DNA of 23,487 bases, from positions 1-23,487 of the IMG/VR virus record IMGVR_UViG_3300017697_000101. The stretch is one strand, 5' to 3'. Positions 1 to 20,835 of the stretch are shown here, piece by piece. Source of the stretch: a virus. The notes beneath the pieces are model-generated. The model worked only from the letters and a program-made list of their open reading frames with translations. It was not told the DNA's origin and made no database searches. Position 1 is the first letter of the stretch. Each line of letters starts with the position of its first letter. The position numbers were made by a program, and so were the translations under genes.

Positions 1-555
1 ATCTTGATCATAACTTCCAAAATAACCTGCTTTACATTGCCATCCTTTTACATCAGGAATTATAATGATTTCTTTTTTATCAGGATCCCAATATTTAAAG
101 TAACCATCTCCTGTTTCAGACCAGGTGAAGATGATGTTATATGCTGATGCATTAGCGTTATTGTGCCACGAAATAAATCCTCCAGGAGGATATACCGCAA
201 ACAGAGCGTTTCTTCTCATACACAAATTAGTAACTAAACCGCCAATGGTCTCTTGGAGGTTTTTATTAATCTCCTCAGCCTTTTCTGCTATATCATCACA
301 ATCAACAAACTTTATATTCTTAGAAACGAACGAATGTGCACATATAATTTCAGGAAATCCATCATGTTTGTCGCCCATATCCATAATTTTTTGAAGATAC
401 TGATCACTAATATATTCGTCAGAATGATTCAAAAAACTTTCACATGATAAAACCACTGCTTTATAATGTTCGTCTTGTATAAACCATTCAGCGCCTTTTA
501 GAATATCTAACGCATAATCATTCAAGGGTACATCTTTCAAACCAATTCTAATCAT
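1..555 (-). CDS. 2OG-Fe(II) oxygenase-like protein, C-terminus cut off by window edge
   Basis: I translated this frame by hand from the ATG at 555: 185 codons stay open to base 1 with no stop, so the gene continues outside the window. The protein begins MIRIGLKDVPLNDYALDILK. Residues 121-150 read VYPPGGFISWHNN, then ANASAYN, then IFTWSETGDG, followed by GWQCKAGYFGSY near 171-182. From memory this resembles proteins of marine T4-like phages annotated as 2-oxoglutarate/Fe(II) oxygenases (prolyl-hydroxylase-like), which hydroxylate a protein or small-molecule substrate. The expected first iron motif HxD appears as H131-N-N133, and the second iron histidine would lie outside the window, so activity is unproven. 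The ATG lies inside the end of the glycosyltransferase gene (8-base overlap, ATGATTAG), so the two are probably co-translated. The existence of the gene is well supported; the enzymatic role is moderately supported. Confidence 0.7.
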   Translation of the reverse strand, partial: MIRIGLKDVPLNDYALDILKGAEWFIQDEHYKAVVLSCESFLNHSDEYISDQYLQKIMDMGDKHDGFPEIICAHSFVSKNIKFVDCDDIAEKAEEINKNLQETIGGLVTNLCMRRNALFAVYPPGGFISWHNNANASAYNIIFTWSETGDGYFKYWDPDKKEIIIIPDVKGWQCKAGYFGSYDQD

Positions 556-1297
556 AGTTATTGTGTTTTGCTTTTGAGTTAGAGAAATGCCGTATCACAA
601 CAGGTTTAGTATTGTGTGCTGCTCTATAACCATTAAAAAAGTTCCAACGGGCATCATCTTCAAAGATGGCAACCTTTAAAGATGAGTATTTTGGTTCTTT
701 GTTTAACAACCTCCAAAGAGAGAATTGATCCCACCGTTTAAAAGAAGCTGGATAGTTCTTAAGATCTTCTGTGCCATCCTCGTTTAATGGCCACCAATGA
801 CCATCATATTGACGAATAGTGAGATCATGCCAATCCACCATAAATTCTTTTACCAAAGGATTAGTCATGTTATATAAACACACTCCTCCGCAAAGTTCAA
901 ATCCACCCATACTACCATCTGGTTTAGTTGCGCCAGGAAAGTAGACTTCAGCGTAACAATAATGTCTTTCTTCGGGCAATCCTGTGAAAACTAAATCATT
1001 ATCTCCAAGTTCATCAAACACTCTTGCGATGTCTTCATGTTCTACATCACAATCAGCATCAATATAAAATGTTTGGTCGTATGGTGATTTTGCCATTCCA
1101 TCAATCTTAGATCGTTTGTGACTGGCTACAAATTCTACTTTATCCGCACAAAATTCTTGACCGTCCAAAAAACGTTCTTCAGTGAAAAGGGTGACATTAG
1201 CATCAGGATTATATGCTTTAATAGTTTCGATAACATGAATAGCTGATAAGTAAAAATATTTTTTAACGGTACCAACTACTACATAACCACGGGTCAT
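548..1297 (-). CDS. GT8-like glycosyltransferase (glycogenin/galactosyltransferase type)
   Basis: This 249-residue protein would transfer a sugar from a nucleotide-sugar donor in the host cytoplasm; the acceptor is unknown. Features in GT8-like order are: an N-terminal strand VVVGTVKKYFYLSAIHV (6-22); the metal/nucleotide motif D80-A81-D82 in FYIDADCDV; a central FELCGGVCLYN (133-143), which matches the acceptor-side loop of the fold; WDQFSLW around D190-Q191; and a C-terminal RHFSNSKAKH (236-245), like the family's conserved H...K pair. There is no signal peptide or membrane segment. Its ATG overlaps the upstream stop as ATGA (4 bases), and its own stop overlaps the next gene by 8 bases. Downstream of two Tyr/Thr/Ser-rich repeat proteins, it is a candidate for modifying virion fibres. 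Modification of host surface glycan or of another phage protein is the alternative. The fold assignment is fairly sure; the substrate is inference. Confidence 0.8.
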   Translation of the reverse strand: MTRGYVVVGTVKKYFYLSAIHVIETIKAYNPDANVTLFTEERFLDGQEFCADKVEFVASHKRSKIDGMAKSPYDQTFYIDADCDVEHEDIARVFDELGDNDLVFTGLPEERHYCYAEVYFPGATKPDGSMGGFELCGGVCLYNMTNPLVKEFMVDWHDLTIRQYDGHWWPLNEDGTEDLKNYPASFKRWDQFSLWRLLNKEPKYSSLKVAIFEDDARWNFFNGYRAAHNTKPVVIRHFSNSKAKHNNYD

Positions 1298-1743
1298 TTA
1301 AAAAAACCCATTTCATATGCCATTACCATTGTAACCGAGGCATTGAGTTCAACTTCATTTTTTGCTCTACGTACTTTAGACCTAAGAGTTGTTTCTTTGC
1401 AGTTTTTTATATCTTCTATTTCAAAGGCCTGTAATTTTAAAGTATAAAGTTTTTCTAACTCTTTAGCCTGTTTATCCTGATCTCGTTTAACAGTATCGTC
1501 AATTTTGCGCTTTGCTTTTTCTGCATTTCTTTTAGCAGTACTAGCATTAATTCCTTCTACTGTTAACGCATCAATAACTTCATTATACAACGGATTTTCT
1601 GATCCGTCAAGTTGAAATTTGTGAACCGTCAGTTCATCTTTCTTTTCTTTGCCAGGACCAAGTTTGGTCATACGAATACATTTTAATTTAGAATGATCTT
1701 CTTCTTCCCAAAATGCATTGTCTAAAAATCGATACTCTGCCAT
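1294..1743 (-). CDS. Uncharacterised 149-residue protein with charged helical middle
   Basis: I do not recognise a named family. The N-terminus (MAEYRFLDNAFWEEEDHSKL) is acidic and aromatic. Residues about 68-110 are very rich in Lys, Glu, Asp and Ala, with heptad-like Leu/Ile spacing, and probably form a long amphipathic helix or coiled coil. The C-terminus (ASVTMVMAYEMGFFK) is hydrophobic. There are no catalytic motifs, signal peptide or clear membrane segment. The start is supported by a GAGGA ribosome-binding sequence at 1750-1754, which overlaps the stop region of the repeat-protein gene before it. The gene overlaps the glycosyltransferase start by 4 bases. Its position between the repeat proteins and the glycosyltransferase fits a small virion accessory protein or fibre-assembly chaperone, but that is inferred from context only. 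Confidence 0.75.
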   Translation of the reverse strand: MAEYRFLDNAFWEEEDHSKLKCIRMTKLGPGKEKKDELTVHKFQLDGSENPLYNEVIDALTVEGINASTAKRNAEKAKRKIDDTVKRDQDKQAKELEKLYTLKLQAFEIEDIKNCKETTLRSKVRRAKNEVELNASVTMVMAYEMGFFK

Positions 1744-1749
1744 AATAAA

Positions 1750-1754
1750 TCCTC
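1750..1754 (-). promoter_or_regulatory. Ribosome-binding site of the 149-residue gene
   Basis: GAGGA on the minus strand 6 bases before the ATG at 1743, just downstream of the stop codon of repeat protein B. It suggests independent ribosome entry here, whereas most neighbours depend on overlaps. Confidence 0.55.
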
Positions 1755-1756
1755 AT

Positions 1757-3376
1757 TTATGCCGCTCTTACATATAAAGTCCACGTCTCTACTCTCACAT
1801 AGGGCGCTTCAAGTCCAGAAGAAGCGCCGTAAATTAAGTCCGTACTATATTCAGTGGTATAGTCTGTATCATATTCAGATGCATAGTCTGAAACCGAATA
1901 CTCATGTGTATATATGTCTCCCTCAAAGTCTGTTGAATATTCTGTTTCGTAAAACTCACCGGTATATTCGGTATCATATCCAGTCTCATATTCAGTTCCT
2001 TCATATATACCATCAAAGGGTTCTTCATATTCTCCACTATATTCTGTAGTGTATGCTGTTTCATAATCAGTAGCGTAGTCGGTCGCATATAACCCACCAA
2101 AATCATCGGTGTAAGATGCGATATATTCACCGATATAAGTTTTAAGATAATCGCCCTCATATTCACCAACATACGTTCCTCCAAAAGTCGCTTCGTATAT
2201 GCTACCGTCGTATGTGCCTGAATAATCTCCTATATAAGTAGTTTCAAAATCATGTTGATACTCACCAGTATATATTTGACCATCGTATGTGCCAGTAAAT
2301 GCTGGTGCTTGAGTATATTCACCAGTGTATATTACCGATTCGTATGTGCCAGTAAATGCTGGATCTTGATCATATGATCCTGTGAATATTTCACCATCGT
2401 ATGTGCCAGTAAATGCTGGATCTTGAGTATATTCACCAGTATATATTTGACCATCGTATGTGCCAGTAAATGCTGGATCTTGATCATATGATCCTGTGAA
2501 CAATGTTCCGTCATAGATACCCTCAAAGGCTGGATCTTGAGTGTATGATCCTGTGAATAATACTCCGGTATAATTGCCTTCAAATGCTGGATCTTGATCA
2601 TATGATCCTGTGAATAACACTCCGGTATAATTGCCTTCAAATGCTGGATCTTGAGTGTATGATCCTGTGAACAATGTTCCATCATAGGTGCCTTGAAAAA
2701 TCGTTCCATCAAAATCTTCAGATATAATGTTTCCATCATAAGAAGGAACATAGTCCGTGATGTATGTAGGTTCATATTGCCCAGTGAACGTTGGGGTGTA
2801 AGCACCTTCGTAAGTTGGTTGATATTGCCCAGTGAACGTTGGAGTATAAGATCCTTCATAAGTTGGTTGATATTGCCCAGTGAACGTTGGAGTATAAGAT
2901 CCTTCATAAGTTGGTTGATATTGTCCAGTGAACGTTGGGGTGTAAGCACCTTCGTAAGTTGGTTGATATTGCCCAGTGAACGTTGGAGTATAAGATCCTT
3001 CATAAGTTGCTGTGTAAGGAACTCCGCCATCAAAGTTTTTGGCAACAGCAGAACCACTAAAGTTTTCAGCAACAGCATCACCACTAAAGTCTTCATCAAC
3101 AGCCAAACCACTATAGTTTTTGGTAACAGCAGAACCACTAAAATTTTCAGCAACAGCATCACCACTAAAGTCTTCATCAACAGCCAAACCACTATAGTTT
3201 TTGGTAACAGCAGAACCACTAAAGTTTTCTGGTACAGCATCACCTTGAAAGTCTTCATCAACAGCCAAACCACTATAGTTTTTGGTAACAGCAGAACCAC
3301 TAAAGTTTTCTGGTACAGCATCACCTTGAAAGTTTTCTGGTATTAATGGGCCTTCAAAATTTAAAAAATCTGCCAT
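1757..3376 (-). CDS. Tandem-repeat fibre/adhesin-like protein B (539 aa)
   Basis: Almost the whole protein is repeats. Residues 7-114 hold twelve 9-mers of the type [FY]xGxAVxxN. Residues 121-216 hold twelve 8-mers alternating YTPTFTGQ and YQPTYEG[AS]. Residues 231-372 hold seven 19-mers (Y[DT]G..[FY]TG[SE] then Y[TD]QDPAF[ET]G) plus a half copy. Residues 373-516 are acidic with Tyr or Phe about every fourth residue. Only the last 20 or so residues look non-repetitive. No signal peptide, membrane segment or anchor domain is visible. Residues 115-411 have no Lys or Arg. It starts 5 bases after the stop of repeat protein A with only a weak ribosome-binding site, so translational coupling is likely. 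Late position and kinship with protein A suggest a virion fibre or surface adhesin, since marine T4-like phages carry comparable Tyr/Gly-repeat structural proteins. The exact role is unknown. Confidence 0.85.
   Translation of the reverse strand: MADFLNFEGPLIPENFQGDAVPENFSGSAVTKNYSGLAVDEDFQGDAVPENFSGSAVTKNYSGLAVDEDFSGDAVAENFSGSAVTKNYSGLAVDEDFSGDAVAENFSGSAVAKNFDGGVPYTATYEGSYTPTFTGQYQPTYEGAYTPTFTGQYQPTYEGSYTPTFTGQYQPTYEGSYTPTFTGQYQPTYEGAYTPTFTGQYEPTYITDYVPSYDGNIISEDFDGTIFQGTYDGTLFTGSYTQDPAFEGNYTGVLFTGSYDQDPAFEGNYTGVLFTGSYTQDPAFEGIYDGTLFTGSYDQDPAFTGTYDGQIYTGEYTQDPAFTGTYDGEIFTGSYDQDPAFTGTYESVIYTGEYTQAPAFTGTYDGQIYTGEYQHDFETTYIGDYSGTYDGSIYEATFGGTYVGEYEGDYLKTYIGEYIASYTDDFGGLYATDYATDYETAYTTEYSGEYEEPFDGIYEGTEYETGYDTEYTGEFYETEYSTDFEGDIYTHEYSVSDYASEYDTDYTTEYSTDLIYGASSGLEAPYVRVETWTLYVRAA
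1829..2260 (-). repeat. Acidic Tyr/Phe-every-fourth-residue block of protein B
   Basis: Codons 373-516, for example YATDYATDYETAYTTEYSGEY in outline, with Tyr/Phe mainly every four residues and Glu, Asp, Thr and Gly between. It resembles the block at codons 431-567 of protein A but sits at the opposite end of the protein. Confidence 0.75.
2261..2686 (-). repeat. Seven and a half 19-residue repeats (57 nt) in protein B
   Basis: Codons 231-372. Each unit is a 9-mer such as YTGVLFTGS or YDGQIYTGE plus a 10-mer such as YTQDPAFEGN. The residue after the second Tyr alternates strictly T, D, T, D, T, D, T over the seven copies (residues 241 to 355), so the true period is 38 residues (114 nt). The final half copy is YDGQIYTGE. 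Confidence 0.9.
2729..3016 (-). repeat. Twelve 8-residue repeats (48-nt superunit) in protein B
   Basis: Codons 121-216: YTATYEGS, then alternation of YTPTFTGQ and YQPTYEG[AS], ending with YEPTYITD and YVPSYDGN. The unit count (twelve) and the leading PYTATY are the same as in the corresponding block of protein A. Confidence 0.9.
3035..3358 (-). repeat. Twelve 9-residue repeats (27 nt, 81-nt superunit) in protein B
   Basis: Codons 7-114, starting with a degenerate FEGPLIPEN. Units then cycle F[QS]GDAV[PA]EN, FSGSAVTKN, YSGLAVDED, giving a 27-residue superunit. The Lys in the TKN unit is almost the only basic residue of the repeat region. A stub FDGGVP leads into the 8-mer block. Confidence 0.9.
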
Positions 3377-3381
3377 TGTCT

Positions 3382-6345
3382 TTATGCCCGAGTATAACTA
3401 TAATAGAGTTCTGTTGTAAGGCCGAGATTAACCGTATCTTCAAGAGCACCTCGTGTATATGTGAAGCCTCCAGCTGATACTGAAGTTGGATCACTGAAGC
3501 CGCTAGCAACAATGGAGCCCTGATAATAAATTGTGTATTGATACTCGGTGATGTCGTCTTCCGGAATATACTCTGCTTCGCTTAACCAATATGACACTGG
3601 CGCAGTTCGAGAGTAAATGGTTCCAGGACCAACATATGTTCTTTGATAATTTCCAGTAAACGTTGGAGTATAAGATCCTTCATAAACTGGAGTAAAGGAA
3701 CCTTGAAAAATTGGAGTAAAGGAACCAGTAAACGTTGGAGTATAAGATCCTTCATAAACTGGAGTAAAGGAACCTTGAAAAATTGGAGTAAAGGAACCAG
3801 TAAACGTTGGGGTGTAAGCACCTTCGTAAACTGGAGTAAAGGAACCTTGAAAAATTGGAGTAAAGGAACCAGTAAACGTTGGGGTGTAAGCACCTTCGTA
3901 AACTGGAGTAAAGGAACCTTGATAAGTTGCTGTGTAAGGATCACCTTGGAAGTTTTCGGCAACAGCATCACCTTGGAAGTTTTGTGGTACAGCATCACCT
4001 TGGAAGTTTTGTGGTACAGCATCACCTTGGAAGTCTTGGTCTACAGCATCACCTTGGAAGTTTTGTGGTACAGCATCACCTTGGAAGTCTTGGTCTACAG
4101 CATCACCTTGGAAGTTTTGGTCTACAGCATCACCTTGGAAGTCTTGGTCTACAGCATCACCTTGGAAGTTTTGGTCTACAGGATCACCTTGGAAGTCTTG
4201 TGGTACAGGATCACCTTGATAAGGAACAGATACTGGAGTTCCTTCAAAAGTTCCTGTATATTCACCAGTGTATGTTATTGCATAACCGCCTTGATAACTG
4301 CCCTCATATTGCCCATCAAAAGTTGCAGCGTAACTGCCAATATAGTCAGGTTCATATTGTCCATCAAAGGTTGCAGTGTAACTACCAATATAGTCTGGTT
4401 CATATTGTCCATCAAAGGTTGCAGCGTAACTACCTTGATAACTGGCTTCATACTCACCATCAAAGGTTGCCGTATAGTCACCATCAAAACTTGATTCATA
4501 ATCGCCACTAAAAGTTGCAGCATAGTCACCATCAAAACTGGCTTCATACTCACCATCAAAGGTTGCCGTATAGTCACCATCAAAACTTGATTCATAATCG
4601 CCACTAAAAGTTGCAGCATAGTCACCATCAAAACTGGCTTCATAATCACCAGAGTAAATAGTTTCATAATCGGTAGAATATGGTCCTGCATATATGCCTT
4701 CAAACGATGCTTCATATAAAGTGCCATCATATTCACCATCGTAAGGTTCTATATCAATTTCACCTGTATATGACGTTTGATAGAATTCGCTGTCCGTAGT
4801 ACCTTCAAAATCCGTGCTGTAAGTGCCCTCATATTCGTGTTCATATTCTTGTTCATAATCAGTTAAATAATCAGTTTCATAACCACCCTGATACGTGCTT
4901 ATATAAGTACCTTCATATGGTTCAGAAAACTCGTTTAGATATTGTGTATCATAAGATGATTCATAATCGGTCGCATACTCTGTGATATAAGTAGATTGAT
5001 ATTCTGTTTCGTAATCAAGTACACCAAGAAAACTAGCCTCATAATCCGTTTCATACGTCGATACGGATTCATAACCTTCATTTACATTATAAGAAACTCT
5101 GGTGTCCAGTGCTACACCTCTAGCAATCCAAGTGCCTTCATCAGTAGGTGCACCTTGTTCACTAGATCTTAATTGATAACGACCAATCCCTGACTCAATA
5201 ATAATACGTTTGGCTCTTTCGCCAAATGTAAACTTCACTTGGTCTTCGGTCATTTCCTGAAGACCATCAAAATTATTATTATCGCGTCTAACCATTAAAG
5301 GTTTGTAAGGAGTTGGATGAAACGCATCGTTTCTGTTCCAGATACTATATCCAATTGCAGTACCATCATAACGAGTGTCAATAAATATGTTTGATAGATA
5401 CAATTGCCAATCTGAACCAGGCGACTCCGAAGCTAAACGATAAGTACCCGGGCGTTCATGTGTCATTATATTAGATACTATTCTTTGACACATAGCGTCA
5501 AGTTCAAGATCGTTTGTTTCTTTTAATCCTCTACGCCATCTATCATAGAATATAGGATATTTCCTATCATCACCTTCTTCCTGCACTACGTCTATAGAGT
5601 TTTGATAAACCGAAGATTCAATTTCAGATATTCCAGGAGTGTCTGAACGTTCTACCCGTATAAAAGAAGTGAAAAAATCGGATACAGAAGAGAGCGCATT
5701 ATCAGTATCTGTGACCGTTGTGGAAAATTCAAAAGTCATATAACCAATATCAGTAAATGTTATATCGTATGTTGCCGAGTACTGCCCTTGAAGTTTAGTG
5801 GGTGAAGAAGAAAAGTCTTCCCACGTAAAAGTTAATCCTTCTGCATTAACTCCAGTAGTTTCTATAAACCCAGCAGCAGGATTAATAACGGTCGAGTTAA
5901 TAACATAGTTATTAGACGCTTGACCGATGCTCATAGATGTTTGAATTTCTTCGAAGCCATTGCCCGCGTTTGTTGCATCAATAAGAATAGTAATACTAAC
6001 AGTATCATCAACGTATACTAACGAAGGTAAATTGACAGGATTTACGTACTCAAGTGTATTAGTTCCATTAGAAGGAACAGATGTTGCATCTATATTATAT
6101 ACACGAGAATGCGTTCTAGGTCCTTCACTGGGTTCAGAAGGATTTATTACGGTATCAACGTAAGTGCCTACATTTAAAGTAGTGACACTAGAATTGTTGG
6201 TTAAAGTGGTAGGATCACCTTCAACCATCTCACTAAGATGTTTTCCCGCCACATAAGCTAAATAGTCTTCGTCAGTTAACGTAAACTGTTTAACTGCACC
6301 AGCATTCTCGATAGAGTTGGCAAATCGGATTGGTCTAAATGACAT
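3382..6345 (-). CDS. Tandem-repeat fibre-like structural protein A with N-terminal domain (987 aa)
   Basis: Residues 1-430 are non-repetitive. They comprise MSFRPIRFANSIENAG and a following region to about 95, a beta-rich, possibly Ig-like stretch (about 95-230), and a mixed domain (about 255-425) with Trp- and Arg-containing motifs such as YDRWRRGLKE. Residues 431-567 are acidic with Tyr/Phe roughly every fourth position. Residues 568-695 are sixteen 8-mers ([YF]xxx[FY]xGx), 700-798 are eleven 9-mers (mostly FQGDAV[DP]Q[DN]), and 804-899 are twelve 8-mers in a 24-residue triplet. An 88-residue non-repetitive C-terminus ends YYSYTRA. Residues 431-899 contain no Lys, Arg, Cys, Met or Trp. A TATAAATA box lies 27 bases upstream of the ATG. 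The layout (anchor domain, long repetitive shaft, distinct tip) suggests a tail-fibre-like component attached to the baseplate. This is inferred from architecture and neighbours; I know no characterised homologue. Confidence 0.87.
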   Translation of the reverse strand: MSFRPIRFANSIENAGAVKQFTLTDEDYLAYVAGKHLSEMVEGDPTTLTNNSSVTTLNVGTYVDTVINPSEPSEGPRTHSRVYNIDATSVPSNGTNTLEYVNPVNLPSLVYVDDTVSITILIDATNAGNGFEEIQTSMSIGQASNNYVINSTVINPAAGFIETTGVNAEGLTFTWEDFSSSPTKLQGQYSATYDITFTDIGYMTFEFSTTVTDTDNALSSVSDFFTSFIRVERSDTPGISEIESSVYQNSIDVVQEEGDDRKYPIFYDRWRRGLKETNDLELDAMCQRIVSNIMTHERPGTYRLASESPGSDWQLYLSNIFIDTRYDGTAIGYSIWNRNDAFHPTPYKPLMVRRDNNNFDGLQEMTEDQVKFTFGERAKRIIIESGIGRYQLRSSEQGAPTDEGTWIARGVALDTRVSYNVNEGYESVSTYETDYEASFLGVLDYETEYQSTYITEYATDYESSYDTQYLNEFSEPYEGTYISTYQGGYETDYLTDYEQEYEHEYEGTYSTDFEGTTDSEFYQTSYTGEIDIEPYDGEYDGTLYEASFEGIYAGPYSTDYETIYSGDYEASFDGDYAATFSGDYESSFDGDYTATFDGEYEASFDGDYAATFSGDYESSFDGDYTATFDGEYEASYQGSYAATFDGQYEPDYIGSYTATFDGQYEPDYIGSYAATFDGQYEGSYQGGYAITYTGEYTGTFEGTPVSVPYQGDPVPQDFQGDPVDQNFQGDAVDQDFQGDAVDQNFQGDAVDQDFQGDAVPQNFQGDAVDQDFQGDAVPQNFQGDAVPQNFQGDAVAENFQGDPYTATYQGSFTPVYEGAYTPTFTGSFTPIFQGSFTPVYEGAYTPTFTGSFTPIFQGSFTPVYEGSYTPTFTGSFTPIFQGSFTPVYEGSYTPTFTGNYQRTYVGPGTIYSRTAPVSYWLSEAEYIPEDDITEYQYTIYYQGSIVASGFSDPTSVSAGGFTYTRGALEDTVNLGLTTELYYSYTRA
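3649..3936 (-). repeat. Twelve 8-residue repeats in 24-residue triplets (72 nt) in protein A
   Basis: Codons 804-899: YTATYQGS, then the cycle FTPVYEG[AS], YTPTFTGS, FTPIFQGS, ending YTPTFTGN. The Ala and Ser versions of the EG[AS] unit are encoded by two distinct linked sets of codons, and the same two sets occur in the neighbouring repeat gene. Confidence 0.9.
3952..4248 (-). repeat. Eleven 9-residue repeats (27 nt) in protein A
   Basis: Codons 700-798 encode eleven units, mostly FQGDAVDQD, FQGDAVDQN or FQGDAVPQN. Two degenerate units lead (FEGTPVSVP, YQGDPVPQD), and FQGDAVAEN comes last. At DNA level the core CCAAGGTGATGCTGTA recurs nearly unchanged. A truncated unit FQGDP links to PYTATY and the next block. 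Confidence 0.9.
4261..4644 (-). repeat. Sixteen 8-residue repeats (24 nt) in protein A
   Basis: Codons 568-695 encode sixteen units [YF]-x-x-x-[FY]-x-G-x, for example YEASFDGD, YAATFSGD, YESSFDGD and YTATFDGE. These four form a 32-residue higher-order unit present twice in a row; the two 96-base copies (4549-4644 and 4453-4548) are identical base for base. Later units become YEPDYIGS and Y[AT]ATFDGQ. The block ends with YTGT before the 9-mer block. Confidence 0.9.
4645..5055 (-). repeat. Acidic Tyr/Phe-every-fourth-residue block of protein A
   Basis: Codons 431-567 of the 987-residue protein. Tyr or Phe falls mostly at four-residue spacing (YETDYEASF, YETEYQSTYITEYATDY), and the spacers are dominated by Glu, Asp, Thr, Ser and Gly. 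There is no Lys or Arg and only one His. The block is degenerate at DNA level, unlike the blocks that follow, so it is probably the older part of the repeat region. A matching block ends protein B. Confidence 0.75.
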
Positions 6346-6371: not shown

Positions 6372-6379
6372 TATTTATA
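6372..6379 (-). promoter_or_regulatory. Candidate T4-type late promoter before repeat protein A
   Basis: The minus strand reads TATAAATA exactly, the T4 late-promoter consensus recognised by gp55/gp33-modified RNA polymerase. It overlaps the end of the 76-residue gene and lies 27 bases upstream of the ATG of protein A, in the largest gap of the window (29 bases). A chance match is possible in AT-rich DNA. Confidence 0.5.
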
Positions 6380-6605
6380 TAAGTTTTTTAGTTATCAGTT
6401 CCAATGCGTTTTTTATTTCAGATATGTCAGATTCCAAAGAATACAGTCTAGCATTTAGCATTGTTTCGTCCTGACGTTTTTCTAAACGTAGTTTTTTGGC
6501 AATTCGGGCCCGTTCAATTTTATCCATATCGACGTTTAATATAGCATTAGTCTTTTGATCACGAACTAAGCCCGGATAGCCTTGTACTTCAATAAAATCG
6601 TCCAT
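6375..6605 (-). CDS. Small coiled-coil virion-associated protein (76 aa)
   Basis: The protein begins MDDFIEVQGYPGLVRDQKTN, with a short globular segment (V-x-G-x-x-G-L-V-R-D, then AILN). A basic helix follows (residues 29-45, RIAKKLRLEKRQ-like), and the protein ends in a heptad-patterned helix (about 50-76; LYSLESDISEIKNALELI) that probably oligomerises. Small proteins of this pattern occur among the structural genes of T4-like marine phages, usually without assigned function. It begins 2 bases after the stop of the 1807-residue gene with no strong ribosome-binding site, so coupling is likely. It lies between the giant baseplate protein and repeat protein A. A connector or trimeric adaptor between wedge and fibre is a reasonable guess but untested. 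Confidence 0.8.
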   Translation of the reverse strand: MDDFIEVQGYPGLVRDQKTNAILNVDMDKIERARIAKKLRLEKRQDETMLNARLYSLESDISEIKNALELITKKLI

Positions 6606-6607
6606 AA

Positions 6608-9600
6608 TTAAACTGCAAAGAATCTAGTCACAATACCTTGTTTACTTTCCATAGTTAATCTAGGCGCACGATCAATACCAGTCATGACAAATTTAGTCTG
6701 AGCTTGTTGGAAAGGTGGTAGTGTGCCATTTTTGCCGCCAGGTAACCAATGTGCTTCTACTGAACTAGTAGAATTTGCAATTGAGTTTTCGGGTGGTTGA
6801 TAAACCCACGAAACTTCACTAATATTCTGATCAGCCGTAGCAGTTCTATAATACAGATCTACGTTTGAACCTGGAGGTGTCGTAACTTCGGCTTTAACAT
6901 CAATCGATACCGCAGGAACTTCAAGGGTTACTGGTGTAGTGATGTGTTTAGATCCTGCTGTTCCACCACTAGCGGCGGTTTCTGATACCGGATTAAGTGA
7001 GGTGTTACCATCGTCGAAACATTCTCCAATTAAAGTAAGAGATGCTCTTTGAAGATCTATGATAGGTGAAATATAATCATTAGAAGTTTTTAAATCAACC
7101 TTTACATAAACTGATGCGTTTGATCCTGGAGTTGTACCACCTAGACCACTAGTTCCATCTGTTTTTGCAGAATTAAAAATAGCTCTTGGTTGATCAAATT
7201 CAATATTTTGATCAGGAGTTATTTTTTCAAACTTAGCATCGATCATTGAACCCGCTTGATTATTAGGTTGGAATCTTACAGTTGTTGTATCTGATATGTG
7301 ATTGCCGGTAAGAAACTTAGCAGAATAGTCAACAGAAGAAAAGTTTGGTATGATAGATTCGATGTTAGGATTTGCAACATCAAAAATTGCATTTCTTCTT
7401 GATAGAACCTCATCGCCGCCACCACTAATATCTTTAGTTGGATTTATACCAGTAATTTGAATTCTATATCCTTCTAGATCCACTGCCTCGACTGTGTGTG
7501 CTGTATTTAAAGTGGCTGCAGAAACATTGTCAACAGTCGTACATCCAGCTAATGTGGTGACATCTCCAACAGATAATCCATGACAAGGCGCATTGACATA
7601 AACAAGGTCAGATCCGGAATAAAGTCGGATTGGATTATTATCTAACAGTAAAGCAGACAATGGTGCATTTTTCAACATAAGAGTGCCACCCGAAAGATCG
7701 AATTTAGCCCGAGTGAGTTTCATCATCAGATCTTGATTCATCGATTCTAACCAGATAATCCCGTTCTGTGGTAAGAAGAGTGTGCCGTTACCCTCTTGAG
7801 TGGTGACCAAACGACCCGCAGAACCCAACACGCTTTCTTTAGTTTTTGCACTATATATTTCATATTCATCTGATACTGATGATACAACAATAGCGTAATT
7901 AGTCCACGGTTGCAAAAATATAGGTTCTTCAAATGTAAATAATGTTTCGAAATCTTCTTTAATTGTATTCAACGTAACTACTTCATTTACCTCAGGCGTT
8001 TTCACATCACTCGGATTTAAAAATACGTGTGAATCAGGTACAATGTCTGTACTAGAAGGTTTACCATTCACAACAGGTCTTAGATGAATTGATACTGGCA
8101 ATCCTTGGGTGGACTTCGTTTTAAAATACAATGAAACTGTAGTCAACACAAGACCAAATTGATTATCAACATAGAAGGTTTGAGCAAGCGGATTCTGCGG
8201 AGTCGAAACAATAGAAGTGCTTCCTGAAGGATATTGTTTATTGTTAACACTAATGTAATCAGATAGAACTTGAGACAATTCACCATTATTTGATAACGTT
8301 TGTAACTGAGTATTGTTCAAGAAACTTGTTCCTGGACCATATTTACCTGCTAACTGCGCTTCAAATATACCAGTATAACCACCACTTAATGATACACCAT
8401 TCAAAGCGGATTGCAATTCGATAGGAGAGTATGTAGAGGGATGCCCGGCAAATCCTAATCCTAATGGTGAAACTGTTTTATAGCCTCTAGTAGTTAAAAT
8501 ATTATTTGATTTGTTATTTAATGCGCCAACAACGCTGTAGTAACCAAACGCTTTACTTTTTGCTTTTGCCCAATCGTTTACATTAATGTCTAAAAGTTTA
8601 AACTCACGAACACCTGATCTAAATCTGAGATACTCTGTTTTGATTTTAGACTTTCTTAATTTCTTAGAAATATAATATAGAGGTTTCCTATTTGGAATGT
8701 AAAACGATCCAATAATTTCTCCATTATCGTCTGATTGGAGTTCTGTTGATCCGTCTGGATGTGCACTATATTGTGCACCTTGATTTCCAATATCGTCGGT
8801 TCTATCTGAGAAAGGAACAAACGTGGTTTCTTCTCTACACCAATCAGTTACTATCTTACCATCAAAGAACGGAGTAAATTTAGTATTAGGTGTTAATCCT
8901 TTAGCGTGAAAATATATTTTTCTAGAACGAATCCAAGGAATCAAAGCCAGATCAATAGTACGATGACCGATCCTCATTCTTAAAGTATCACTAGCAACTA
9001 CTCGTCTAACAAATCCGGCAGCTTTTTTCGAAGATCTAGATGACGTATAGAAGTCATTAAACACCTGTGAAGCTCTGCTACGAATTCCGTTTGCAAGTCT
9101 GGATTTATCGCCAGCACTGATCCAAAGATCATCGTCATTACGCCCCTTCCAATTCCATTGCCAATTATTCCACAAAAAGGCTTGTTTAGAATCTAACCTA
9201 GAAGTGCCTTGTATCGCTTTAATTGCTTCGCTTTTACAATCTTTCCATTCGTCCGTTGAAGGTGACATTTTAATAACGCCGACATTATCCACCATGCCGA
9301 AAGGATTAATTTTAATTGAACGAGAAGCAAGATCCTGAAATTTCCATTCGTCAGAATCAAATTGTAAATAGACATTATCGCCTCGTTTGACTATATTACT
9401 AGTACCATAATCGGCTTCGCAAATTAAACGAATATTGTCTTCATCGGCTTTAGGTCGAATCAACTTATTTTCAGGATCAAGAGCCGCTGAATAGTCTCCA
9501 TCATCTGTGGCAGCACCAGATTGATCATCACCATTATCGACAATCAAACCAGCATCTGGGCGTTCTACACCGTCACTATCTAATCCTGGTGTGTGAAAAG

Positions 9601-12031
9601 CTCTGAGTTCTGCAAGATTAAGTTCTGTGTATTCTCTAAGTTCATCAATTTTGTTGTCCAACTTTCCAATATCAGACATAGTATACAATTTATGTTCGAT
9701 CGGTTTGACTTGAACATCGTTTTGATCAATAGTGTTAGCATTCATTAAAATTTGGTACAATTCTAAAGCGTTGTCGGGTGTTTTCTTTAATTGAGGATCT
9801 CTAGATTGTTGACCCATTAATATCTGAATATCACCTTCCTGAGTGACAAGCAACTTGTCTGCTCTAGGCAAGTAGTATGAAATATCAGCATTAATTGATG
9901 TGCCGTTTCTTGGCAGATATGAAATTTTTGTGAAAGCGCCGGCAGCATCTTTGTCGGGTCTAAAATCCAGATAGTTTCGTAGACTTACTATAGTGCCATC
10001 TTGTAAAGTGTGTTCTGGAATATCCGCATATGATGCATAACTTGATGCAGCAAAAAAGTCACCAGTACTGTGAGCGTAATATTTAAATGCAACGTATACT
10101 CTTAAAGGATCAGATTCACCACCTTTCAATAATAGTTTACTGTTTGCATAATAATTATCTCGTTGACCATCATCCAGAATAAATCTTTCTGAACAATCGG
10201 CTCCTGTAGTATTATCAGCTCCACCGCCAGCAGCAACGATTCTGATTTCGTCTATCTCATACACATCTGGTACACCCAGATCAACTTCACCCGTGACAAC
10301 ATCAGCATAATAGGAACCTACACTTGTAGTTAAAGTTTTGCTTTTCAATGTAAAGGCGCTGCCAGTGGCGGCTTGTGATGTTTTGATATAATAAGATATA
10401 CGATATTGTTTAGTATCAATCAAACCACTGATCGTTGCCTGTTGTGGATTAGTTATATCAACCGTAGGTACAGTTACAGCAGTATTATCCGTGATATTGT
10501 AAATTAACCATTGACTCGTATCCGTATATGAATCGCCAGAAAGAGTATCAAGCGTTACGGTAGTACCACTAGCCGTTTTGATTGCAGTTCTTTGTGTTGT
10601 TATGATAACATTGTCTAAAGATGATAATCTAGGTCTTGAGGTTGGAAACAAAAGATCGTTGTCGGTTGTTCCTAATAGTCTAGCGTTTGTAAAACCATTT
10701 TCGTCACCTAAATCGTTATTAGTTATTAAATATTTTCCGAGACCAATTGATCTCGCGGCCGCAAAATCTTGTCCTGCGTCCATAACAACATCAAACAAGT
10801 ACAATTTATAACCTGATCCTGAAGGTTCAATTCCTCGAATTCTACATTCACCAATTCTAGACGAACCACCGAGGTCTGAAGCGATTTCTAAAGATCCATA
10901 AGTGAGGTCAGGTAAGTCTGTTGCAGTGTCAAGTAAAACGTAGTTACCGTATATTACAGGAACAACATCGCTATTAACAAATTCAGTCGATTGTGATTTT
11001 GGTACGATTAGTTCAATAGGTGAAGGATTTTCTACACGATATCCATTGACATATGCAATACCGGACGATACGGTAAGACTTAAATTACTTGCATCATCAG
11101 CAGAATCAAAAGCTATAGTAAAAGGTTTAACAATATAATCGCCAGACTCTTCGTTTGTTCTTAAAGCAAGGACATCATTAATTTTGTTATAATTATCTAA
11201 AACATCAACCTTTTCCACAATTTTAGAATTTTGAATTTTAGCTACAAAGACGAACGTATCATCGGAAGTGATTGATTTTTTCTCAACCAGTTCTAATCTA
11301 ATTCTGTATCTGTCAGCACCAGGCGAGGCATTATTAATAATACCGCCACTATTATCATATAAATCAGTAGTATCATTTACTGATACTACTTCTTGAATAA
11401 CTTTATATCCTATCGTAGTATTAGCAGTTTGACTATATTTAGACAGAATTAAATTTTGTGGTGTTGCACGTACAAATCTACCTAATACAAAAAAGTCACC
11501 ACCCGCAACATCTACTCTAGTACCTCTGCCTACGGGAGACGCTGCATCAACACCTGTATTCCACACTGTTAACCCAAAGCCAGGAGCCGTTATATCGTCG
11601 GAAGGTGAGAATGAAGGCGATTCTCCGGAGGCAACGTTGGCACCGCCATCAATATAACTAACGTACAATGTATTAGGAGTAGAAACAGTGCTATTAAGAA
11701 CCGATATCACTTTAGCTTTAACACCGTTATCATTAGTAAATATAGTTCCCACAGGAATATCACTGAAGACCCCGTTTGCAATTGTAGCGATTTGGACATA
11801 ATCGTAAAAAGAGTTTATTCCAACACCACCAAATGACACTGCGGAACCCTCTTTGAAAATATTTCCACCAAACCGTCCCATCTCTTGATAGATCATAGTT
11901 TGCAGTTGAGTCAATTCTCTAGCTTGTAAGGCTCTACCAGAATTAAATAAAATTTGATGATAGTTATCAGAATCCTGATAATCATCGTTATATAAACCCG
12001 ATAAAGTGGTAGTAGTAAATGTTGTTGGCAT
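6608..12031 (-). CDS. Giant baseplate/virion structural protein, DUF4815-like (1807 aa)
   Basis: The N-terminus carries the DUF4815 signature: DDYQDSDNYHQILFNSGRAL followed by QARELTQLQT (about 15-45). Near residues 710-800 come SYYLPRADKLLV and YTMSDIGKLDNKIDELREYT, also typical of that family. A middle part has LALIPWIRSRKIYFHAKGLT and TPFFDG. About residues 1250-1400 contain VSLYFKTKSTQGLPVSIHLR and TNYAIVVSSVSDEYEIYSAK, a jelly-roll-like segment also seen in large phage structural proteins. The rest is beta-rich and Ser/Thr/Asp-rich. T4 has no protein of this length in the wedge. By position after gp6 and gp8 it may do the job of T4 gp7 and/or gp10, but I did not see direct similarity. 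Its ATG overlaps the gp8 stop as TAATG, with a ribosome-binding AGGAC about 9 bases upstream. Structural role is sure; exact baseplate position is not. Confidence 0.88.
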   Translation of the reverse strand: MPTTFTTTTLSGLYNDDYQDSDNYHQILFNSGRALQARELTQLQTMIYQEMGRFGGNIFKEGSAVSFGGVGINSFYDYVQIATIANGVFSDIPVGTIFTNDNGVKAKVISVLNSTVSTPNTLYVSYIDGGANVASGESPSFSPSDDITAPGFGLTVWNTGVDAASPVGRGTRVDVAGGDFFVLGRFVRATPQNLILSKYSQTANTTIGYKVIQEVVSVNDTTDLYDNSGGIINNASPGADRYRIRLELVEKKSITSDDTFVFVAKIQNSKIVEKVDVLDNYNKINDVLALRTNEESGDYIVKPFTIAFDSADDASNLSLTVSSGIAYVNGYRVENPSPIELIVPKSQSTEFVNSDVVPVIYGNYVLLDTATDLPDLTYGSLEIASDLGGSSRIGECRIRGIEPSGSGYKLYLFDVVMDAGQDFAAARSIGLGKYLITNNDLGDENGFTNARLLGTTDNDLLFPTSRPRLSSLDNVIITTQRTAIKTASGTTVTLDTLSGDSYTDTSQWLIYNITDNTAVTVPTVDITNPQQATISGLIDTKQYRISYYIKTSQAATGSAFTLKSKTLTTSVGSYYADVVTGEVDLGVPDVYEIDEIRIVAAGGGADNTTGADCSERFILDDGQRDNYYANSKLLLKGGESDPLRVYVAFKYYAHSTGDFFAASSYASYADIPEHTLQDGTIVSLRNYLDFRPDKDAAGAFTKISYLPRNGTSINADISYYLPRADKLLVTQEGDIQILMGQQSRDPQLKKTPDNALELYQILMNANTIDQNDVQVKPIEHKLYTMSDIGKLDNKIDELREYTELNLAELRAFHTPGLDSDGVERPDAGLIVDNGDDQSGAATDDGDYSAALDPENKLIRPKADEDNIRLICEADYGTSNIVKRGDNVYLQFDSDEWKFQDLASRSIKINPFGMVDNVGVIKMSPSTDEWKDCKSEAIKAIQGTSRLDSKQAFLWNNWQWNWKGRNDDDLWISAGDKSRLANGIRSRASQVFNDFYTSSRSSKKAAGFVRRVVASDTLRMRIGHRTIDLALIPWIRSRKIYFHAKGLTPNTKFTPFFDGKIVTDWCREETTFVPFSDRTDDIGNQGAQYSAHPDGSTELQSDDNGEIIGSFYIPNRKPLYYISKKLRKSKIKTEYLRFRSGVREFKLLDINVNDWAKAKSKAFGYYSVVGALNNKSNNILTTRGYKTVSPLGLGFAGHPSTYSPIELQSALNGVSLSGGYTGIFEAQLAGKYGPGTSFLNNTQLQTLSNNGELSQVLSDYISVNNKQYPSGSTSIVSTPQNPLAQTFYVDNQFGLVLTTVSLYFKTKSTQGLPVSIHLRPVVNGKPSSTDIVPDSHVFLNPSDVKTPEVNEVVTLNTIKEDFETLFTFEEPIFLQPWTNYAIVVSSVSDEYEIYSAKTKESVLGSAGRLVTTQEGNGTLFLPQNGIIWLESMNQDLMMKLTRAKFDLSGGTLMLKNAPLSALLLDNNPIRLYSGSDLVYVNAPCHGLSVGDVTTLAGCTTVDNVSAATLNTAHTVEAVDLEGYRIQITGINPTKDISGGGDEVLSRRNAIFDVANPNIESIIPNFSSVDYSAKFLTGNHISDTTTVRFQPNNQAGSMIDAKFEKITPDQNIEFDQPRAIFNSAKTDGTSGLGGTTPGSNASVYVKVDLKTSNDYISPIIDLQRASLTLIGECFDDGNTSLNPVSETAASGGTAGSKHITTPVTLEVPAVSIDVKAEVTTPPGSNVDLYYRTATADQNISEVSWVYQPPENSIANSTSSVEAHWLPGGKNGTLPPFQQAQTKFVMTGIDRAPRLTMESKQGIVTRFFAV

Positions 12032-15940: not shown

Positions 15941-16567
15941 CTAATCAGGTAAGATTTCTAGAAATTCGTTCTTAGTTTGCAACACACCATTATATTTTGT
16001 TTCAATATCATATTTATAACTTACTTCAAAAGTCACTGGGACAACGGGTGTTTCTACAACGATTTGAGATGTAAGATCTCCGTTTGGATCAAACGTGTCG
16101 TAATCTAACGTTATCTTATCATAGTTGATATAATCTTTCCAATATACTGCGAGATCGAATGTTTTTCTTGGATCAGTTTTACCTGCACGATCCACTAGTT
16201 GATATACAACTACTTGTCCTGTTCTTCTCAATTTAAGAATGTCGCCAGGTCTTTCGCCGATGTAATTGCCCGAAGGATCAAACGCGGGATTAGGTTCGTA
16301 GATACCTTCTGAAACTATCAGTCGATGTTGTGCGTACTCTTGGTTGCTTACCACAGTCTGCATAATTTGTGCATGAAGCACAAGATTTCTTGCTATCTGA
16401 TCTAGATCAGGTGGACCATTAAATCCTTCATTGTATAACTTTTTGATTTGAGTTCTAGATCCTCTAGCGCCTAGAAACTTTGCCATACTAATGCCTGGGC
16501 CTAGTTTCAATTTGGACGTAATTTCTTTACCTGTGGGATCATATTTTGGATCAATCAATAACTTCAT
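15941..16567 (-). CDS. Unknown structural protein between needle and gp25 (208 aa)
   Basis: I do not recognise a characterised family. The protein starts MKLLIDPKYDPTGKEITSKL. An alpha-helical stretch follows (about 28-100) that includes RGSRTQIKKLYNEGF and IARNLVLHAQIMQTV. From about 100 it is beta-rich, with EPNPAFDPSGNYIGERPGD and a VVVYQLVDRAG strand, and it ends FLEILPD. It has no signal peptide, membrane segment or enzyme motif. It overlaps the needle gene by 4 bases (ATGA), so the two are co-translated. Its stop abuts the promoter gap in front of gp25. A position immediately after the needle suggests a baseplate hub or wedge accessory, or a chaperone for the needle. T4 has no obvious counterpart at this place. 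Confidence 0.75.
   Translation of the reverse strand: MKLLIDPKYDPTGKEITSKLKLGPGISMAKFLGARGSRTQIKKLYNEGFNGPPDLDQIARNLVLHAQIMQTVVSNQEYAQHRLIVSEGIYEPNPAFDPSGNYIGERPGDILKLRRTGQVVVYQLVDRAGKTDPRKTFDLAVYWKDYINYDKITLDYDTFDPNGDLTSQIVVETPVVPVTFEVSYKYDIETKYNGVLQTKNEFLEILPD
16011..16018 (-). promoter_or_regulatory. TATAAATA box inside the 208-residue gene
   Basis: An exact TATAAATA on the minus strand lies about 98 bases upstream of gp25 and inside coding sequence. The box at 15933-15940 is better placed; this one may be chance or an accessory start. Confidence 0.2.
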
Positions 16568-18027
16568 TTCTTCACCTTGAACCTTTTACTTCTATTATCT
16601 ACAGGATTATTACCAAGTAATTCAACACCAAACCGTATCGTTCCATCTTTGTTCGCTGAACGACCAATATTCTTAGGTATTGTTTTGGAGAAATCTTTGT
16701 TTAATAACTCTTCACTTACCAGATAACTGGTAAACTTACCATTGTTTAAATTACTAGGTGATCTAATTTTAGATCTAATCTCGTGAATATCAGGATCAAA
16801 GTTGAACAACTCCTCATACTCATCAGACTTCATGATCTTCTCTTTCAGTTTAGAATCCACCTGTACGTTTCTAACACCATATGAACCAGTGGCTAACATA
16901 AGTTCAACAACAGCAGGATTAGGAAGAGGAGCCTTCGGAGGTATCGGAATGAACGGCATGATACCAGGTTTTGGTGGAACACCGACAGGAGGTGGTCCTG
17001 GTGTAGTACCTCCACCCTTAACAGCCGTTGCCGCAGCACCCGCATTTGTAGCAAAACCTGCGCCTGACGCATACATTGCATAATCACTATGCCATGCTTC
17101 GCTTGCTTTACCCACCAAACATCCATAGAAAGTTGCCAAGTTAGTTACACCACCCGGCAAACCACCGTATGTTGATCCGTAATAATCAATAAGAGGACCA
17201 CCAATGGTGCCTTTGTGCCCAATCATACTGATATGTCGTGCAGTAATGTTAGCAGTACCAGCAGCACTTGTCCATTCTGCAACCGCAGATGTTACCAAAT
17301 TTGTTCCTGCTGTGACTTCTATTTTAGCCTCACTGCGAATATTGGTGTTGCCTTTTGCTAGTACATTATGTGTGTCTAACATAGTTTCCGAGTTAGGACC
17401 GATCACCATCGCTCCTCGTGACCCTCTGACAGTGTAGTTCTGATCACGATTGACTACTTTGGTGTGACGCCCTTTAATGTTCTCTATCTTATCACCAGCC
17501 ACCTCTAGATTATAATTGCCATCTACATCTACATTGAAATCGCCCGCAACACGTAAATTAACATCACCCTTGTAAATTAGATTGCCTTCACCTTCTACTA
17601 TCACCGTTGCGTCACCGCCTGTGACTTGAACTGTCTGCTTCTGAGATGATATCAAAACACTACCGTCAGCACGAAGTTCCATACCAGCACCAGACCGATG
17701 CTTGATAAGAATGCGTTCACCTCCAGGAGTATCGTCAATCTCAATGACATGCCCAGACTCAGTTTCCTGTACTTGATTGAAAGGGTACACAGAAGGTTTT
17801 TGATCTGGCAATTCCAAATCTATGCCTAATTCACTACCACCTAATCCTAGATTATTTACTTTAGAACCTACAGCGGCTTTGTTAACACTAGATCCAAAAA
17901 AATAATCTCTCTTAGGATATTCTCCAGTAGGATCTACCATTCCATCTATAGTAACACCTTCGGTATCTTCTTGACCTTCATTTAAATATCGTTTTCTTCC
18001 CGAGAGGTCGTCAATCGTATTAGTCAT
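16564..18027 (-). CDS. gp5: gp5 C-terminal beta-helix needle protein with Pro-rich extension
   Basis: I prefer the ATG at 18027 (487 residues) because GGAAAA precedes it at proper spacing. A TTG four codons further upstream also keeps the frame open. Residues about 85-120 read VQETESGHVIEIDDTPGGER, then HRSGAGMEL, matching the region of T4 gp5 and VgrG that enters the triple-stranded beta-helix. Residues about 120-270 are short alternating strands (GDVNLRVAGDFNVDVDG-type), the membrane-puncturing spike. A Gly/Ala-rich part and a proline-rich linker (about 342-372, PGPPPVGVPPKPG then IPIPPKAPLPNP) follow. A charged 110-residue C-terminal domain of unknown role ends the protein. In T4 the OB, lysozyme and helix parts are one gene; here the helix is separate. 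The gene overlaps the amidase gene by 8 bases and the next by 4. Confidence 0.85.
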   Translation of the reverse strand: MTNTIDDLSGRKRYLNEGQEDTEGVTIDGMVDPTGEYPKRDYFFGSSVNKAAVGSKVNNLGLGGSELGIDLELPDQKPSVYPFNQVQETESGHVIEIDDTPGGERILIKHRSGAGMELRADGSVLISSQKQTVQVTGGDATVIVEGEGNLIYKGDVNLRVAGDFNVDVDGNYNLEVAGDKIENIKGRHTKVVNRDQNYTVRGSRGAMVIGPNSETMLDTHNVLAKGNTNIRSEAKIEVTAGTNLVTSAVAEWTSAAGTANITARHISMIGHKGTIGGPLIDYYGSTYGGLPGGVTNLATFYGCLVGKASEAWHSDYAMYASGAGFATNAGAAATAVKGGGTTPGPPPVGVPPKPGIMPFIPIPPKAPLPNPAVVELMLATGSYGVRNVQVDSKLKEKIMKSDEYEELFNFDPDIHEIRSKIRSPSNLNNGKFTSYLVSEELLNKDFSKTIPKNIGRSANKDGTIRFGVELLGNNPVDNRSKRFKVKK

Positions 18028-19975: not shown

Positions 19976-20835
19976 TATACTAAGACCTCGTCATATGCTC
20001 TTTGGGCGATTTGATCACTCTGAGATGCGCTGTTAAGATAATATTTATTAAAGACCTGACTAGCATCTTTAATGTTGTTTGTTACGTTTAGTTTTGAGTT
20101 GGTTAAATTAAATCTAGTACGCAATTCAAAAAGAACAAACTGTAATTGAGTAGAATATAATTTCCAGTCTACAGCAGGTCTATATTGTTGCGAAAATCTT
20201 AGTAATCCTGTGTAACGACTTCCTATAGAAGGATCAATTGACCATTGGGCAATTCCTGTATTAGACACTCCACCAAATGTAACAAATGACGATATGTTCT
20301 CTAATGCACCAGTGATAGCAGCGGCATGAATTATTTTATAACCATTATCAATAAAAAACTTCATAGATTGTTGTCTTCTAATACCAACACTAGGATTAGC
20401 AAGATCATCCTTTGCAATTTTTGCTATAACTACGTTTTGTATTCGTTTTTGATCATATTCGAATGAATTTTCAGACGAGCCGCGTTGTTCTTTTTGAATA
20501 GATGTGGGCAGTTCAGTGTGTGGCAAAGATCCAAGCACTAATGGTATTTGCGATGACATTCCATCGAGAAAAATACCGAACACAAAAGCACCTTTGGACA
20601 ACTGTGGTATTCTTCCGATACCAGATGAACCACCTTCTGTAGTAGGAATCAAGACTTGAGCCCACGGTAAATCTTTTTCAGGAATCTCTCCTGTATTGGA
20701 ATTATGAACACCAGTGATACGAATTTTAACACGGCCCTCTAGTCCAGCAGGAGGTGCCGAATTAATCACATAACCCAAAAACCAACGGTTATCATCTCCA
20801 TAATAATCTTTCTGTATAGGTCTTAATACGTTCAT
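19975..20835 (-). CDS. gp5: gp5-like hub protein: OB fold plus tail-lysozyme-like domain
   Basis: Residues about 15-107 resemble the T4 gp5 N-terminal OB fold: RWFLGYVINSAPPAGLEGRV, then KDLPWAQVLIPTTEGGSSGI and FGIFLDGMSSQIPLVLGSLP. This domain seats the spike on the gp27 hub. Residues about 155-284 resemble the phage tail lysozyme family (Phage_lysozyme2): KFFIDNGYKIIHAAAITGAL, GIAQWS (194-199), RY-x-GLLRFSQQY and LQFVLFELRT. The family's usual GNLxxESG active-site segment reads GALENISS here. The glutamate is at 179, while the standard column (181) is isoleucine, so activity may be altered. There is no C-terminal beta-helix; that part is on a separate gene downstream. The gene overlaps the gp27 gene by 4 bases (ATGA) and the amidase gene by 1 (TAATG). 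The OB assignment is strong; the lysozyme domain is good but not certain. Confidence 0.85.
   Translation of the reverse strand: MNVLRPIQKDYYGDDNRWFLGYVINSAPPAGLEGRVKIRITGVHNSNTGEIPEKDLPWAQVLIPTTEGGSSGIGRIPQLSKGAFVFGIFLDGMSSQIPLVLGSLPHTELPTSIQKEQRGSSENSFEYDQKRIQNVVIAKIAKDDLANPSVGIRRQQSMKFFIDNGYKIIHAAAITGALENISSFVTFGGVSNTGIAQWSIDPSIGSRYTGLLRFSQQYRPAVDWKLYSTQLQFVLFELRTRFNLTNSKLNVTNNIKDASQVFNKYYLNSASQSDQIAQRAYDEVLV

Follow-up and report, generated by a model that had tools for sequence, protein, structure and literature searches.

Does a phage that carries genes resembling a glycosyltransferase and an oxygenase close behind its fibre genes use them to decorate its own fibres? This question is raised by the IMG/VR virus record IMGVR_UViG_3300017697_000101, whose entire 23,487 bp were analysed here (the window). 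The minus strand of the window carries baseplate and tail genes of the T4 type, together with genes for two long repeat proteins (R1 and R2), a small conserved protein (Pc), a predicted glycosyltransferase (GT) and an oxygenase-like protein (OG). We propose that repeat fibre(s), Pc, GT and OG constitute a four-gene module by which T4-like marine phages modify their fibres, most likely through O-glycosylation of Ser or Thr, and the evidence as a whole tips modestly in favor of this proposal. The genes concerned are as follows.

1..555, minus strand: OG, similar to double-stranded beta-helix (DSBH) 2-oxoglutarate (2OG) oxygenases, first 185 residues only (from alignments, a model of the homologue in relative L002, and Foldseek)
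548..1297, minus strand: GT, predicted GT-A fold glycosyltransferase, 249 amino acids (from alignments, a structure model, Foldseek and residue counts)
1294..1743, minus strand: Pc, conserved linker gene, 149 amino acids, possible fibre chaperone (directly upstream of GT in 45/45 GT clusters)
1757..3376, minus strand: R2, second putative repeat fibre protein, 539 amino acids, with the conserved C-terminal tail ETWTLYVRAA
3382..6345, minus strand: R1, putative repeat fibre protein, 987 amino acids, an open reading frame (ORF) with N-terminal domains (about residues 1-420) and then arrays
6375..6605, minus strand: Pf, virion structural protein (phrog_473), flanking the module and outside it
6608..12031, minus strand: Pg, large conserved protein (phrog_358) beside T4-type baseplate genes, also a flank of the module

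Transcription on this strand runs from Pg through Pf, R1, R2, Pc and GT to OG, which is truncated by the contig end. A first-pass annotation, made from the letters alone, described two repeat ORFs followed by overlapping genes for the two enzymes, and these are present: the GT gene shares 4 bp with its upstream neighbor and 8 bp with OG. Its statement that GT follows the repeats at once missed Pc, which intervenes at 1294-1743. The window's baseplate wedge protein is nearest to that of phage C48C1 (38.5%), followed by those of Pelagibacter phages, Methylophilales phages and cyanophages; the window thus appears to come from a distant marine T4-like phage with no close cultured relative.

Linkage of fibre, Pc, GT and OG among relatives

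Related viral loci and contigs, which bear L-numbered names, were collected by using GT, OG, Pc and a fibre domain as baits in turn. The fibre-domain bait was built from closer members, as a diverse alignment had no conserved stretch. Each scan kept the best 80 matches, and many contigs are near-duplicates. The GT, OG and Pc baits returned 242 loci, which reduce to 112 near-identity groups, and nearly all loci uncut by a contig end show the order repeat fibre-Pc-GT-OG in the same orientation. With those found through the fibre bait added, the GT-bearing loci number 291, and clustering them at 70, 50 and 40% identity yields 45, 14 and 6 clusters, respectively. Pc lies directly upstream of GT in all 45 clusters at the 70% level, and is as conserved in this linkage as the two enzymes; OG is the next gene after GT in 41 of them and lies within three genes in the other 4. 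Among the best 80 loci from the fibre bait, 57 carry Pc, GT and OG, one stops inside GT, and 22 stop at the fibre or no more than 182 bp past it, such that the three genes are present in 57/57 contigs that reach far enough.

Some loci depart from the usual order. In L062 and L069 an inserted second fibre separates GT from OG. In L358 GT is shifted upstream, the four genes still lie within 5.4 kb, and another GT-like gene follows them. About three groups (L067, L074 and L076) have a different protein of 420 amino acids directly before Pc, and the repeat fibre lies further upstream. Loci that were not labelled as carrying repeats, where sequence upstream of Pc is available, have a fibre with other repeats or with a related N-terminal domain (e.g. 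L024, L051, L061, L140 and L227); the others stop at a contig edge. The same block is found in a phage among cultured-phage records: tblastn searches of 50,697 phage records with GT, the fibre N-terminus and OG gave convincing matches only in C48C1, where a fibre of 3347 amino acids is followed by Pc, GT and OG as in the window.

The first-pass annotation had envisaged a self-contained cassette whose enzymes belong to the fibre. Whichever bait is used, fibre, Pc, GT and OG occur together in every informative relative, and no informative locus carries the enzyme pair without a repeat protein. This obligate linkage strongly supports the cassette idea, with four parts rather than three.

Could four genes of a tail operon simply have been inherited jointly, with no functional tie? 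Conservation of tail clusters is common among T4-like phages, and the block does not stand out by identity correlations. However, the block persists while GT identity ranges from about 32 to 96%, and the genes around it have been replaced. To control for plain synteny, the neighbors of the block were sorted into families: the genes after OG represent 8 (22/43 in the largest), and those before the fibre 12 (18/36 in the largest). The block was also regained or kept after the rearrangement in L358. Ordinary synteny is consequently an improbable explanation. In many loci the gene after OG (e.g. L002:11477-11830) matches phrog_3304, annotated as 'L-shaped tail fiber protein assembly', and phrog_1084.

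Predicted folds and conserved residues of the two enzymes

The structural model of GT has a mean predicted local distance difference test (pLDDT) score of 96.3 and a GT-A fold. Its top PDB matches by Foldseek are enzymes of GT24, GT8 and GT6, namely UGGT, LgtC, GT6 enzymes and glycogenin (E 1e-8 to 3e-7, template modelling (TM) score 0.5-0.6), and the model thus predicts a GT-A fold protein of the retaining group that holds GT8, LgtC and glycogenin. With LgtC, glycogenin, UGGT and BoGT6a, GT shares the fold, the DxD motif, the DQ pair and a C-terminal H...K. Specifically, the metal-binding residues D80 and D82 are present in 72/72 sequences, as are D190 and H237, which agrees with the motif residues read from the window at first pass. 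The remaining residues of that reading fared unevenly: Q191 is found in 66/72 sequences, but K242 is not conserved, and K244 (60/72) takes its place. Relative to the HxxGxxKPW-type C-terminal motif of GT8 glycosyltransferases, the spacing from H237 to K244 is +7 rather than +6, and there is no conserved G or PW. The designation "GT8-like" is therefore upheld at the level of the fold group but not by Pfam, where the window protein and 21 members gave no match naming GT8 at E≤1; a sequence comparison with PDB chains was likewise uninformative. Further glycosyltransferase genes of phrog_1962 lie just after OG in several loci (L160:10528-11301, L187:11839-12504, L322:13860-14555 and L226:11763-12413), and L358 carries a phrog_1962-like gene at 10932-11696.

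OG is about 226 amino acids long in L002, a near relative, and the model of that homologue (pLDDT 97) has a DSBH fold. Foldseek matches it to AlkB, PHD2 and prolyl hydroxylases with a probability of about 1 and TM scores of 0.3-0.4, and also to viral 2OG oxygenases, where an unnamed phage protein scores best. A putative iron motif is formed by H131-x-N133...H192...R200, with all four residues invariant in 72/72 sequences; H131 and N133 fall within the part held by the window, and H192 and R200 lie beyond the contig end. The spacing is that of 2OG oxygenases, and R200, 8 residues past H192, would be the distal Arg for 2OG. However, Asn replaces the usual carboxylate of H-x-Asp/Glu throughout, such that the HxD/E...H metal triad is absent from the family. 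Pfam gave no 2OG match at E≤1 and a PDB sequence search was uninformative. Since Pfam names neither family, the assignments of GT and OG both derive from predicted folds. The oxygenase-like label of the first-pass annotation accordingly holds for the fold and for H...H...R, but not for the carboxylate or the Pfam family. The H-x-Asn motif leaves ordinary prolyl hydroxylase activity of OG unproven.

Membership of OG in the cyanophage 2OG-Fe(II) oxygenase family phrog_81 was considered but not confirmed. Single-sequence hmmscan matches (E=4e-4 to 8.5e-4) were obtained for 3/72 members only, and hhalign of OG with four cyanophage phrog_81 proteins, a profile comparison, does not join the families (probability 1.25%). 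The carboxylate position varies among the four phrog_81 proteins, which come from P-SSM2 and syn9, and P-SSM2 (the record behind L263) has 14 to 15 stretches that match phrog_81.

The missing carboxylate invites the explanation that GT, OG or both are catalytically dead and act as fibre assembly factors, a role that would suit a cluster containing Pc and the phrog_3304-like gene. Yet the invariance of D80, D82, D190 and H237 in GT, and of H131, N133, H192 and R200 in OG, suggests working sites rather than decay. Metal sites with two histidines and no carboxylate are known in some oxygenases. We regard the loss of catalysis as distinctly unlikely.

The OG family is broader than the module, because copies beside the tail tube gene lack GT in 20/21 contigs found (L242-L261), the other being a module locus. 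C48C1 itself has OG copies beyond the module at about 18.3 kb (L033:18252-18920, by the tail tube gene) and about 40.2 kb. The WHNNANA motif of OG recurs in these tail-tube-side paralogues where matched (seven loci checked). Such copies lend some weight to a further alternative, in which the enzymes are active but act elsewhere, for instance on a different protein of the virion, on a sugar nucleotide or on a glycan of the host surface, and share a late operon with the fibre. Neighborhood alone does not name a substrate, and the enzymes belong to an operon of tail genes that has further fibre genes downstream. Nevertheless, each informative locus that carries the pair also has a fibre of this family, and this holds for the rearranged L358, L062 and L069 as well; we consider a substrate elsewhere to be rather unlikely.

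Pc offers fewer clues. Neither the window Pc nor that of C48C1 matches a phrog, so no known chaperone family was found; the window protein has no family match, and 48 homologues gave only scattered weak matches to known families. Pc is possibly a fibre chaperone.

Repeat arrays and the candidate acceptor residue

The repeats noted at first pass are real. R1 contains 4 copies of TPTFTG; R2 contains 5, together with 3 copies of QDPAFEG, which R1 lacks. The aromatic periodicity greatly exceeds chance expectation: the longest run of Tyr, Phe or Trp at a spacing of 4 is 40 in R1 and 24 in R2, compared with maxima of 9 and 8 in 2000 shuffles, and the aromatic autocorrelation at lag 4 is 0.48 and 0.53, respectively. 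For Gly, the autocorrelation is highest at lag 8 (R1) and lag 9 (R2). The R1 arrays place Tyr or Phe every 4 residues in units of 8, 9 and 16 amino acids, and tandem arrays in the DNA have units of 24, 27, 48 and 57 bp, among others. Across the family, fibres consist of N-terminal domains, a domain termed D3 (5089-5559 of the window in R1), the array and, usually, a conserved C-terminal tail (ETYTLYVR-A); D3 directly precedes the array in each fibre. Many relatives have a single giant ORF of 2000-3300 amino acids, or two fibre ORFs, in place of R1 and R2. Between L002 and the window, Pf, Pc, GT and OG are 96-100% identical, R1 is 80% and R2 66% identical, and the repeat proteins differ in length. 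The repeat arrays thus turn over fast.

Over 133 residues (562-694), R1 weakly resembles the gp5 region of phrog_430 (E=1e-11, a score that low-complexity similarity may inflate), and it also matches gp5 proteins by tblastn. These resemblances suggest that the fibre has a beta-helical shaft. The octad spacing with regular Gly recalls the C-terminal triple beta-helix of T4 gp5, although the module fibre has an aromatic residue at every fourth position and gp5 does not, and the repeats have no match among PDB sequences at E≤0.01. Residues 780-936 of R1 match Bbp36 of the Bordetella phages BPP-1 and BMP-1 in a segment that is annotated as variable region 2, probably through low-complexity similarity. 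Elsewhere in the window, a gp5-like baseplate hub is seemingly split in two: its N-terminal part lies at 19975-20835 and its beta-helix part at 16564-18039, and the two are separated by a protein with an amidase domain (18020-19975, phrog_822).

If the array is the target, its composition limits which residue can be modified. Among 145 distinct complete arrays, Pro makes up less than 1% in 57% and is missing from arrays of 855 and 903 residues, and Lys is below 1% in 90%. Tyr content is down to 0.7-1.7% in arrays built on Phe, as in FTGDFTGDF (1 Tyr in 153 residues). Asn and Asp are each absent from some arrays. By contrast, Thr is at least 7% and Ser at least 2.5% in all 145. Array composition therefore rules out Pro, Lys and Tyr as a general acceptor in the repeats. 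Thr and Ser would be the only hydroxyl acceptors left in every array, provided that one rule covers the family. Lineages might instead differ in the residue modified, or modification might be directed at conserved sites of the N-terminal domains rather than at the array.

These data bear directly on the chemistry put forward at first pass, in which a glycogenin-like GT glucosylates the repeat Tyr and OG hydroxylates Pro, as in hydroxyproline-rich glycoproteins. The window repeats do contain Tyr (9.5% in R1 and 13.4% in R2) and Pro (4.8 and 4.6%), and glycogenin and prolyl hydroxylases are among the fold matches of GT and OG, respectively. However, relatives with the same enzymes have arrays with the lowest Tyr contents or with no Pro at all, and OG carries H-x-Asn. 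Moreover, Tyr and Phe replace each other freely at the aromatic position, as would fit a structural role. Neither the Tyr nor the Pro half of this chemistry agrees with the family, and we consider it very improbable.

How, then, might the four-gene module work? The repeat proteins would be tail fibres, with N-terminal domains followed by an array that probably forms a beta-rich shaft. Pc, encoded between fibre and enzymes, probably aids the folding of the fibre or presents it to the enzymes. GT would most likely move a sugar from a nucleotide sugar onto Ser or Thr of the array, and OG might carry out a second modification, either of the fibre or of the attached sugar. A more specific version, in which GT and then an H-x-Asn oxygenase modify a giant aromatic-repeat fibre, with Pc as a dedicated partner, in an undescribed and widespread phage system, is offered as a tentative possibility.

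Several considerations weigh against fibre modification at Ser or Thr. Both residues are common in phage structural proteins (background Thr 10.7%). OG need not act on the fibre, given its paralogues without GT beside the tail tube gene. Identity correlations do not set GT and OG apart from their structural neighbors (0.35 for GT-OG, 0.42 for OG-Pg), and the synteny of tail clusters partly reflects common descent.

Precedents and significance

The nearest precedents are collagen modification in mimivirus and the proposed glycosylation of mycobacteriophage virions. In mimivirus, the lysyl hydroxylase/glucosyltransferase L230 and the glucosyltransferase R699 modify collagen, such that a virus-encoded oxygenase and glycosyltransferase act on the virus's own repetitive structural protein (PMC9546862). 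There the substrate is collagen Lys, whereas the phage fibre has no collagen repeat and its arrays are mostly poor in Lys; in addition, the phage encodes GT and OG as separate proteins, the latter with H-x-Asn. A search of the proteins encoded downstream of OG for collagen-like GXY repeats revealed one short run only (4 units). Mycobacteriophages encode putative capsid glycosyltransferases that are thought to decorate virion proteins (PMC11256854). The capsid is the proposed target in that case, whereas here it would be a tail-fibre family, and the module also includes Pc and an oxygenase-like partner. A limited literature search found no case in which a tail fibre is linked to a glycosyltransferase and an oxygenase-like partner of its own.

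Few cases of phage-encoded protein modification are known, and enzymologists would have reason to study an oxygenase family with an invariant H-x-Asn. The four genes stay together in more than a hundred related virus contigs, which suggests that these phages decorate their own fibres. If this is true, then fibre decoration would be routine in a large group of uncultured T4-like marine phages, where it could affect adsorption, stability or the evasion of fibre-binding factors.

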